The translations under genes and the position numbers were made by a program. The notes under the pieces were generated by a model. It saw nothing but the letters and a program-made list of their open reading frames with translations, did no database searches and was not told the DNA's origin. This document shows, one piece after another, positions 12,665 through 51,914 of a DNA stretch of 64,000 nt. The first letter of the stretch is position 1. Each line of letters begins with the position of its first letter. Source of the DNA: a bacterium (GTDB lineage: Bacteria; Elusimicrobiota; Elusimicrobia; UBA1565; UBA9628); NCBI GenBank assembly GCA_021822495.1, contig JAKAQO010000001.1, positions 1-64,000 on the forward strand, given 5' to 3'.

Positions 12665-13177
12665 ATGAACCATAAGAGAACAATCTCCGTCACTCTCAGC
12701 GTTATCTTGTTGGGAGCCGTCGCTCGTCTTTTACCGCATCCGGCCAATGTCACGCCCATCACCGCGATCGCCCTTTTAGGCGGGGCTTATTTATCCCCGG
12801 CTTTAGCCTTGACCGTTCCATTAGGCGCTCTTTTCCTCAGCGACTTATTTCTAGGCTTTCATGTAACAATGCCTTTTGTCTATTTTTCTTTTATCTTAGT
12901 GTCAGCCATAGGGCTTCTTCTTAAGAACCGCCGAAATACGAAGACGGTCGTCTTCGCTTGCCTGGGAAGTTCCTTACTCTTTTTTATCCTGACCAATTTC
13001 GGGGTTTGGATGAGTTCCGGTCTTTACGCCCACAACGCCTCCGGCCTTGTGATGTGTTATACGGCCGCTCTTCCTTTCTTAAGAAACTCGGCCTTGGGCG
13101 ATCTATTTTTTACCGCTCTTCTTTTCTCGCTTGAAAACGCCGCTCTTAAACTAAGTCCGGTCACCGCGCAATATTAA
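12665..13177 (+). CDS. DUF6580-like small membrane protein
   Basis: ARLLPHPANVTPITAIALLGGAYLSPALALTVPLGALFLSDLFLGFH; ~5 TM segments. Confidence 0.75.
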   Translation: MNHKRTISVTLSVILLGAVARLLPHPANVTPITAIALLGGAYLSPALALTVPLGALFLSDLFLGFHVTMPFVYFSFILVSAIGLLLKNRRNTKTVVFACLGSSLLFFILTNFGVWMSSGLYAHNASGLVMCYTAALPFLRNSALGDLFFTALLFSLENAALKLSPVTAQY

Positions 13178-49257: not shown

Positions 49258-50511
49258 GTGTTTAAGAGTCTAATTTTAATCGCTTTAATGATGCCGGCCT
49301 GGGGAAGCGAAAACCCGCCTCAGGGTTTGGATGACCTCATCAGTATCGCCGAAAAGAACAATCCCGATATTTCGCGGGCCAAGGAGCATTGGAAATCTCT
49401 CATGGCCCAAGTTCCCGCCGAGGCAAGCTGGAATGATCCAACAATCGGCTTTCAGCGAATGAATTTTCAAGGCGGAGACGCCGGCAATTATTGGTCCGTC
49501 GCGCAAGACGTGCCGTTTCCAGGGAAACTATCCAAAAGCGCGGAGATGAAACGCCATGAAGCGCTCATTGCCTATCAGGAATACCGCGCCGAGAAACTCA
49601 ATGTCATAGCCCAAGTGGCGATTGCCTACGCGCGCATCTATTGGCTTAAAAACACCGCCCAAATTCTTAAAAAAGATTCTGAGACTTTACGAGCGCTGTC
49701 AAAAGTCGTGGAGGCTTCCGTCGCCTCCGGCCGCGCCAAAGCCGATGAGGCCTTATCGGCCCAGGCCGCTTTTATTAAGGTAAGAAATGCGGCGATGGAG
49801 AGAAACGCGGAAAGCCGTGTCCAGGAAGAATCTCTCGACTCTCTTCTCAATCAACCGGCGGGAAAGCGTTGGCATCTTCTTCCGCCGTCTCAGCCGCAAG
49901 AACTTAAAATTAGCGCCGCAGGTCTCGATCAACTCGCCCAAAAAATCAGCCCGGATTACATGAAAGCTCTTCATCTCATTTCCCACGCCCAAGCCATGGT
50001 GAGCCTGGGGAAAATGGGTTTTTTGCCGGATTTTCAACTCACCGCGACCCAAGAATCCGGCCGTCCCGTTCCCGCCATGGAGGAAAGCGCCTATGGCGTC
50101 AATCTCACGATTCCCCTGTGGTTTTGGAAAGAAAAGGCCATGCTCAAATCGGCTCAAGCTCACGAGCGCGAAGCCGCAGCAGAATCGAAACAAGCCCGCA
50201 ACGAAATTTTTAGGGAAATTCACTCGGAACTCATCGAGGTCAACCTACACCAAGAATTGGCTCTCAGCGCCCGACAAGAACTCATCCCATTAGCCCAAGG
50301 AGCTTTTAAAATCGCGGAAAAAGGCTACGAAGCGGGCCGCGAGAGCTTTTCCCAGCTTTCCGAAGCCGTGCGCGCGCTTTTGGACGCGCAACTAAAATAT
50401 CCGACCGAAGTTGAGCTCTATCAGGAACATTTAGCGCGCCTTGAACGCGCTTTAGGTGGGCCGCCCAACACACAGCCTAACGCCATGTCTAGCCAGGAGA
50501 TGAACCCATGA
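49258..50511 (+). CDS. TolC/CusC-family outer membrane efflux protein
   Basis: GTG start preceded by AAGGAG; OEP-family helices; stop overlaps the next start. Confidence 0.88.
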   Translation: MFKSLILIALMMPAWGSENPPQGLDDLISIAEKNNPDISRAKEHWKSLMAQVPAEASWNDPTIGFQRMNFQGGDAGNYWSVAQDVPFPGKLSKSAEMKRHEALIAYQEYRAEKLNVIAQVAIAYARIYWLKNTAQILKKDSETLRALSKVVEASVASGRAKADEALSAQAAFIKVRNAAMERNAESRVQEESLDSLLNQPAGKRWHLLPPSQPQELKISAAGLDQLAQKISPDYMKALHLISHAQAMVSLGKMGFLPDFQLTATQESGRPVPAMEESAYGVNLTIPLWFWKEKAMLKSAQAHEREAAAESKQARNEIFREIHSELIEVNLHQELALSARQELIPLAQGAFKIAEKGYEAGRESFSQLSEAVRALLDAQLKYPTEVELYQEHLARLERALGGPPNTQPNAMSSQEMNP

Positions 50512-51611
50512 AATCAAAAACTCCCGTTTTTTTGACCGTCCTTTTTTTACTCATCGGCGGTTTTTTTCTAATTAAAAAAACGAACTATCCGCCCGCGCCT
50601 CCCGTCGTGGCGAAAAAAAACCTCTATCAATGTCCAATGCACCCGCAAATTATTCGCTCTAGTCCCGGAGAATGCCCCATTTGCGGAATGGATTTAAGGC
50701 CGATGGAGAATCTCAAGGAAACAGGCTCTTCCGTCCCCAATCGCGCGCCTATTTCAATTTCCGCGCGAAGAAAACAATTAATCGGAGTCACCTACGGCGA
50801 GGTGAAAATGAGGGATATTGTCAAAAAAATCGATTCTCCCGGACGCATCGCCTACGATCCCAAGCTCTATCAAGCGATCGAGGAATACCGCCAGGCTTTG
50901 GAAGCTCTTAAATCTGTTGAGCGTGCGTCTTCCGAAACGGCCTGGGCCCAATCCATGAAAAAGGCTGCGGCCTTAAAGCTCAAGCTTCTCGGATTCTCCC
51001 CGCGGCAAGTTTCGCAATGGCTTCAAAATCCGGAGTCCGCTCAAAGTCTTCTTCTGGGAAAGCGCGGAGAAGCGGTTTGGGTTTACGCCGACGTTTACGA
51101 ATACGATACGCCCTTGGTCCGTCCGGGAATGTCTATGGAAATTCGCTCTCAGACTCTTCCGGGAAGAATTTGGACGGCCAAGATTATCTCGATAGACCCC
51201 GTCATTAATCCCGAGACCAGAACCGCCCGCGTTCGCGCGCGTTTAGACGATGTTCTGGGGCTTCTCAAACCCGGAACCTATGTCGATGTCGCAATTGAAT
51301 CCCCCTTGGGAAAATTATTGAGCGTTCCAGAGGGCGCGATCCTAGACACCGGAGAAAACCAATACGCTTTTGTCGCCAATGAGGACGGAACCTTGACCCC
51401 GACTCCAGTCGCCATCGGAAAGAAAGCCCAAGGTTATGTTGAAATTTTATCCGGCCTCAAAGCCGGACAAACCGTCGTCACCTCGGCCAATTTTCTCATT
51501 GACGCGGAATCACAGTTTCAGAATGCGATCAAATCCTTCGCCCCACCCGATGGCTCAAAAAGCGAGTCTCAATCCAATTCAATGGGTTCCATGCCCGGGA
51601 TGAAAATGTGA
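50508..51611 (+). CDS. cusB: CusB-like periplasmic adaptor with heavy-metal-binding domain
   Basis: YQCPMHPQIIRSSPGECPICGMDLRPM; membrane-fusion-protein domain. Confidence 0.92.
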   Translation: MKSKTPVFLTVLFLLIGGFFLIKKTNYPPAPPVVAKKNLYQCPMHPQIIRSSPGECPICGMDLRPMENLKETGSSVPNRAPISISARRKQLIGVTYGEVKMRDIVKKIDSPGRIAYDPKLYQAIEEYRQALEALKSVERASSETAWAQSMKKAAALKLKLLGFSPRQVSQWLQNPESAQSLLLGKRGEAVWVYADVYEYDTPLVRPGMSMEIRSQTLPGRIWTAKIISIDPVINPETRTARVRARLDDVLGLLKPGTYVDVAIESPLGKLLSVPEGAILDTGENQYAFVANEDGTLTPTPVAIGKKAQGYVEILSGLKAGQTVVTSANFLIDAESQFQNAIKSFAPPDGSKSESQSNSMGSMPGMKM

Positions 51612-51628: not shown

Positions 51629-51659
51629 AAAAAAGAAGGCCCCGGTTTCCCGAGGCCTT
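51629..51659 (-). terminator. Rho-independent terminator
   Basis: Minus strand AAGGCCTCGGGAAACCGGGGCCTTCTTTTTT: GC-rich hairpin then U-tract. Confidence 0.88.
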
Positions 51660-51682
51660 GGGTAGCTATTGGCCCATCTGTC
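51629..51682 (-). ncRNA. Putative ~54-nt RNA with antisense complementarity to tRNA-Asp
   Basis: Bracketed by promoter and terminator; sequence GACAGAUGGGCCAAUAGCUACCCAAGGCCUCGGGAAACCGGGGCCUUCUUUUUU; no meaningful ORF. Confidence 0.5.
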
Positions 51683-51688
51683 AGAATT

Positions 51689-51717
51689 AGTGTAACAGAA
51701 GCGATGAACATTGTCAA
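51689..51717 (-). promoter_or_regulatory. Predicted sigma70 promoter between tRNA-Asp and the terminator
   Basis: Minus strand TTGACA (51717..51712) - 17 bp - TACACT (51694..51689). Confidence 0.78.
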
Positions 51718-51786
51718 GAAAGTTCTAAAAACGGGGCGGACCCTCACCCCCCATCTGTCTGGAGAAAGGCAAATATCCATGAGACC

Positions 51787-51857
51787 TGCCGGGGCGGGAC
51801 TCGAACCCGCATCTCTCCATTTGACAGATGGGCGCTCTACCATTAAGCTACCCGGCA
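51787..51857 (-). tRNA. tRNA-Asp (GTC)
   Basis: TGCCGGGTAGCTTAATGGTAGAGCGCCCATCTGTCAAATGGAGAGATGCGGGTTCGAGTCCCGCCCCGGCA: 7-bp acceptor, D-arm GCTT/GAGC, anticodon loop CTGTCAA, T-arm GCGGG-TTCGAGT-CCCGC, next base G. Confidence 0.93.
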
Positions 51858-51914
51858 AGGTCCTACCTATCATACGGGTGGAGAGTCAAAAAAGTTCCCT
51901 CAAGGAGCCGCTTC

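Follow-up and report, generated by a model that had tools for sequence, protein, structure and literature searches.

Why would a bacterial tRNA gene be followed by a gene for an RNA that is complementary to it? The question is raised by the minus strand of the window, the whole 64,000-nucleotide stretch analysed here, where the original prediction placed a transcript of ~54 nt, marked by TTGACA-17-TACACT, a hairpin and a U-tract, downstream of a tRNA-Asp. These elements are indeed present: the sigma-70 promoter, with TG before the -10 box, lies at 51717-51689 and the intrinsic terminator (hairpin AAGGCCTCGGGAAACCGGGGCCTT-CTTTTTT, with its U-tract) at 51659-51636. The anti-tRNA small RNA between them, 54 nt at 51629-51682, remains a prediction, with its start inferred from the promoter and its end from the terminator in the absence of transcript data.

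Architecture of the cassette

The small RNA consists of two antisense blocks, separated by four bases, and the terminator hairpin with the U-tract. Block 1 (TGACAGATGGGC, 51672-51683) is directed against the anticodon loop (GUC) and the 5' anticodon strand, and block 2 (AGCTACCC, 51660-51667) against the 5' acceptor/D strand. On the plus strand their copies, GCCCATCTGTCA (51672-51683) and GGGTAGCT (51660-51667), are colinear with the tRNA. The proposal that the RNA is antisense to both regions, including the anticodon, is thus borne out. Of the two exact colinear blocks, given earlier as 8 and 11 nt, the shorter stands and the longer is one base longer, 12 nt.

The tRNA-Asp(GTC), which we propose as the effector RNA, occupies 51785-51858 on the minus strand and has no encoded CCA (ARAGORN; Rfam, 65.8 bits). 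Three points had been overlooked. An ECF-sigma-type promoter, G-GGAAC-TTTTTTGACTCTCCACC-CGTA(TG) or GGAAC-N17-CGTAT, precedes the tRNA at 51873-51899; a third antisense copy, GACAGATGGG, lies in its 3' trailer at 51750-51759 and adjoins a terminator-like hairpin (51750-51733); and the tRNA is not the housekeeping one. The whole cassette sits between a CusB-like ORF (50508-51611) and a CusA/CzcA-like gene (from 51915), both on the opposite, plus strand and named from their sequences without a domain search. Both partners are non-coding RNAs, as 54 nt is too short for a meaningful ORF. In the Rfam search of the window the tRNA was the only match, and the small RNA had no gathering-level family match.

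An extra tRNA with its own predicted antisense RNA

The genome of 2.2 Mb encodes 49 tRNAs. The housekeeping tRNA-Asp is located at C14:19774 and is dissimilar to that of the window, an aberrant additional one. Four of the 49 tRNAs are followed, within 350 nt, by an 11-15 nt antisense to their anticodon arm. All four belong to this cassette type and have the ECF promoter; they are the tRNA of the window and three more clustered at C4:765.5-767.8 kb. Among the remaining 45 the best such match is 9 nt. When the downstream 250 nt were randomised with a first-order Markov model, a run of at least 12 nt antisense to the tRNA appeared in 6 of 5000 cases. A chance origin of one block alone therefore has p of about 0.001, and that of two adjacent colinear blocks at the predicted start site is rarer. 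We reject chance complementarity; it is the family of cassettes that decides.

This family comprises about 40 cassettes, spread over 15 of the 56 genomes from this Elusimicrobiota order. It was assembled by DNA similarity, a covariance model of the promoter and tRNA, and inspection, and falls into two families with the same order of parts. The cassettes are self-contained, ~300 bp in size, and carry the anticodons GTC, CTC, TTC, GAT, GTA, GCT, GAC and AAC (Asp, Glu, Ile, Tyr, Ser, Val). In the Val and Ser types the antisense is split otherwise and the plan is unchanged. Of 40 cassettes, 38 have a sigma-70 promoter with at least 8 of 12 matches, from which transcription is predicted to begin at the first bases of the antisense. 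Trailer antisense copies of 7-10 nt occur in most cassettes with a trailer of 40-70 nt. For two tRNAs (G008:C9:77239 and G034:C145:279) the partner is missing or not intact at the locus.

In a scan of 342 genomes of the phylum, none of the loci inspected outside the order (L142-L158, not every weak match) combined the ECF promoter with the antisense. The GTDB-wide exact-pattern scan returned one Elusimicrobia genome with two cassettes, four chance matches and nothing more, and no cassettes were found in the viral contigs scanned. A simple mobile element was also considered and rejected, since no constant integrase or transposase adjoins the cassettes.

Cassettes are kept at orthologous loci across genera, and their presence is patchy. 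One of them (L162 4468-4608, G015) is separated by 70 nt from a divergent gene reading like DNA polymerase IV (DinB). Two more are found at G044:C145:9940 and 11265 (L170): a Ser-like cassette that differs in its anticodon (ACC or similar) and seems to lack the ECF promoter, and one truncated by the contig end.

The pairing covaries

A 9-nt match to the anticodon arm was part of the rule by which cassettes were selected, and the perfection of this block is partly by construction. For this reason the argument rests on three checks that are independent of it. By our tally, the antisense is present in 31 of the 33 covariance-model matches above 83 bits, and in seven of the eight that were not used in building the model. 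For block 2, which played no part in the selection, the summed energy of pairing with its own tRNA is -489.8, whereas permutations average -342.1 (sd 18.9, z = -7.8); none of 20,000 permutations paired as well. Its changes are matched between the two RNAs, as in GGGTAGCT:AGCTACCC, GGTCGTCTAAC:GTTAGACGGCC and GGGTGGA:TCCACCC. At syntenic loci the anticodon and the antisense have switched together, in G014 and G027 (GTC) versus G022 (TTC) and in G016 (GAT) versus G015 (CTC). Position 33 of the tRNA, within the anticodon block, is U in 17 cases and C in 11, each time opposite the matching A or G of the small RNA.

The predicted energies point to specificity. In the own genome the cognate duplexes are predicted at -34 to -43 kcal/mol, those with the tRNAs of other cassettes at -17 to -26 kcal/mol and those with the best housekeeping tRNA at -26 to -30 kcal/mol, that is, 8-15 kcal/mol weaker than the cognate ones. 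Thus, the four own-genome pairs are predicted to be orthogonal, and the weaker duplexes disfavour housekeeping tRNAs as the main target. Together, the small RNA and tRNA are predicted at -63.5 versus -30.9 and -22.1 separately, so that invasion of the tRNA 5' half would gain about 10 kcal/mol. We are highly confident that the cognate pairing is real, although its occurrence in vivo is inferred.

Hence, the covariation that the original prediction had proposed to seek in related genomes is found, with the promoter and terminator conserved. Its suggestion of an anti-tRNA regulator survives, as promoter, terminator and complementarity recur in relatives and the pairing covaries. What has to be replaced is the target, which is a dedicated, ECF-controlled extra tRNA and not the normal tRNA-Asp.

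The tRNA as a very probable member of an ECF sigma regulon

The pattern GGGAACNTTTN{9,13}CGTA occurs 15 times in the genome versus once for the reversed control. The same promoter lies upstream of the ECF sigma gene itself in 27 of 30 orthologs, versus 7.7% of random stretches. Lineage variants of the promoter reappear in the cassettes (CGTAC in G039, GGAACAAAA in G022). With a promoter common to the sigma factor's own gene, the tRNA cassette qualifies as a member of the regulon. We consider it very likely that the ECF sigma factor controls the tRNA, with transcription itself being inferred. One genome, G003, has kept several cassettes, yet its matches to the ECF sigma factor are only weak.

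In the own genome the other genes behind this promoter are the ECF sigma gene, recA, a comF-like gene, two Y1 (REP-type) transposases and genes for coiled-coil proteins and an LTXXQ-like protein. The genes downstream of it in other genomes are recA, radC, SpoVG, UPF0102, ORF6N, HicA, Gp49/HigB-like toxin, LAGLIDADG and Y1 transposase genes. The presence of recA, radC and comF suggests, by inference, a response to DNA damage or competence.

Toxin-antitoxin linkage and decay of the tRNA

G000, G003 and G004 have a conserved locus in common, where cassettes are interspersed with HicBA or RelBE-type pairs that have promoters of their own (G000:C4:765.2-768 kb, L075; L092 10300-13300; L175 700-3300). 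In G004 one Ser-HicBA unit is present twice, nearly identical. Against a toxin-antitoxin reading, many cassettes have no such genes nearby.

Several tRNAs are damaged beside an intact small RNA: in G002, by deletion at the cusB-cusA junction, in G003, in G004 and twice in G039. Palindromic REP-like repeats split the T arm at the same place in G003 and G004 (L092 ~13090-13150 and L175 ~1410-1470), and twice in G039 (L104 and L168). This asymmetry is the trace expected of a toxin-antitoxin pair and suggests one, though the numbers are small. A further sign in this direction is the tRNA at G022:C113:1078, which has lost its small RNA; a sibling's small RNA is predicted to be able to pair with it (-36.5 kcal/mol).

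In the G002 relic, at the orthologous cusB-cusA site (L197, 125 nt before cusA), a -10-like box, the antisense to a CTC-type tRNA and the terminator are left; the cusB-cusA site of G003 is empty. A collapsed cassette before a HicB gene (G000:C4:766886-766800, minus strand, L186) consists of the ECF promoter and tRNA 5' half fused to the small RNA end and terminator. We also note that Y1 (REP-type) transposases belong to the same ECF regulon as the cassette tRNAs.

The cassette tRNAs retain the cloverleaf and elbow, with covarying stems. Nevertheless, C33 is found in 16 of 38, and those with Ser and Tyr anticodons are built on class-I bodies, which lack the long variable arm required by bacterial SerRS and TyrRS. 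These features make mischarging or poor decoding plausible. Together with the broken tRNAs and the linkage to HicBA/RelBE arrays, they suggest the role of a toxin.

Proposed mechanism

To the observed architecture, covariation, predicted orthogonality and shared ECF promoter we add the following model, in which an inducible tRNA-like RNA is restrained by an antisense RNA that is made constitutively.

Step 1: The alternative (ECF) sigma factor would transcribe the extra tRNA or tRNA-like RNA, while its dedicated antisense inhibitor would be made constitutively from the sigma-70 promoter just downstream.

Step 2: The free 5' end of the small RNA may pair with the anticodon loop and 5' anticodon strand and next with the acceptor/D 5' strand. 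Such pairing would block or undo the folding of the tRNA 5' half. The trailer hairpin with the further antisense copy may, in addition, keep the tRNA precursor inactive in cis.

Step 3: With the ECF sigma factor active, presumably as part of a DNA damage- or competence-type regulon, the tRNA would outrun its inhibitor. The tRNA would then be the effector or toxin and the small RNA the antitoxin of an all-RNA system resembling toxin-antitoxin modules.

We lean slightly towards this model as a whole; transcription, pairing in vivo, the trigger and toxicity are inferred, and there are no expression or toxicity data. Judged from the sequences, the pairing step is well supported and harm by the tRNA is not. 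That the unpaired tRNA is harmful is unproven, and we put it somewhat short of an even chance. Still more tentative is the idea of a new class of modules, in which tRNA toxins with custom anti-tRNA antitoxins are timed by a DNA-damage/competence sigma factor, travel with protein toxin-antitoxin genes and diversify by joint change of anticodon and antitoxin.

Alternative explanations

The tRNA might instead be useful and non-toxic, specialised for translation under stress or for using aminoacyl-tRNA outside the ribosome, with the small RNA silencing leaky expression outside the ECF response. Well-kept folds with covarying stems and persistence at orthologous loci in different genera are what such a tRNA would have, and G73 on most Asp types makes some cassette tRNAs look chargeable, which is compatible with usefulness. 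This explanation has difficulty with anticodons that switch at one and the same locus, with the C33 tRNAs and the Ser/Tyr-anticodon bodies lacking the variable arm, and with patchy presence and repeated breakage. We regard it as unlikely, although it cannot be set aside.

It is improbable that the small RNA is the effector, with further RNAs (normal tRNAs among them) as its targets, and that the ECF-driven tRNA is a decoy soaking it up. Block 2 does fit a motif common in tRNAs (GGTAGCTC), and the window small RNA is predicted to form a moderate duplex with the housekeeping tRNA-Asp (-30.4 kcal/mol). However, the anticodon-arm block matches only the cassette's own tRNA and moves along with it, the housekeeping duplexes are the weaker ones, and small RNAs left intact beside broken tRNAs would be harmful if the tRNA were a decoy.

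Just as improbable is a single transcript, on which the antisense copies would act purely in cis through an alternative fold governing processing or termination of the tRNA precursor. While the trailer copy sits on the precursor and the distal block shares the strand of the tRNA, a strong sigma-70 promoter separates the tRNA from the distal antisense in those 38 of 40 cassettes and would start at the antisense 5' end; moreover, a trailer copy is absent from the short-spacer cassettes of G015 and from the Ser types. A feature of the DNA only, either a recombination/integration site or the decayed inverted tRNA duplication first named as the main alternative, would account for tRNA sequence in an inverted repeat and for arrays with toxin-antitoxin genes, and is refuted for the duplication and scarcely credible in general given the compensatory covariation with anticodon changes, the conserved spacing to promoter and terminator and the lack of a constant adjoining recombinase.

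Relation to known systems

The model of an inducible tRNA held by its antisense RNA works most like type VIII, the all-RNA toxin-antitoxin systems (PMC9458426, PMC12548467), in that two non-coding RNAs are specifically matched. With toxicity untested, we do not file the cassette under this type. In CreTA, the CreT RNA toxin sequesters a rare tRNA (PMC9458426). Both partners are RNAs and the logic is of the addiction type there as well, but in CreTA the tRNA is the victim, whereas here it is the proposed effector, and repression proceeds via Cascade instead of a base-pairing small RNA. The definition of CreTA, an antitoxin RNA from CRISPR-like repeats that guides Cascade, is not met by an inhibitor directly antisense to the tRNA, and no CRISPR parts were seen in the cassette neighbourhoods, which were viewed without a genome-wide search.

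Type I systems share the adjacent gene pair and the short constitutive antisense RNA that inhibits its partner. Their definition, with the mRNA of a small protein toxin as the antisense target, is not met either: the target here is a tRNA with a covarying cloverleaf under ECF sigma control. The anticodon nucleases and other tRNA-directed toxins (PrrC, RloC) would likewise act on tRNA or translation; unlike the cassette, where an RNA would regulate the tRNA, they are proteins that cut tRNAs. No earlier description of anti-tRNA modules, and no ECF regulon with tRNA gene members, was found in the open-access literature, subscription papers and preprints being outside the scope.

We found no description of a bacterial system in which a tRNA gene comes with a dedicated antisense RNA, and none of ~40 matched tRNA/antisense pairs with changing anticodons; should the tRNA prove toxic, the cassette could be classed under the all-RNA toxin-antitoxin kind. 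If confirmed, the cassette would add a mode of tRNA control, perhaps with tRNAs serving as toxins, and would supply ready-made sequence-specific tRNA silencers. Their small size and self-contained nature make the idea directly testable in a laboratory strain.

Last, the cassettes draw attention to an uncharacterised ECF sigma factor of Elusimicrobiota that is tied to recA, comF, radC and selfish genes. As in stress- or competence-like ECF regulons, its autoregulated promoter is common to recA, radC and comF. The regulon (GGAACTTTTT-N-CGTAT; L183, L190, L182, L235, L282-L311) is large: single genomes contain as many as 27 sites, and the reversed control gave none.
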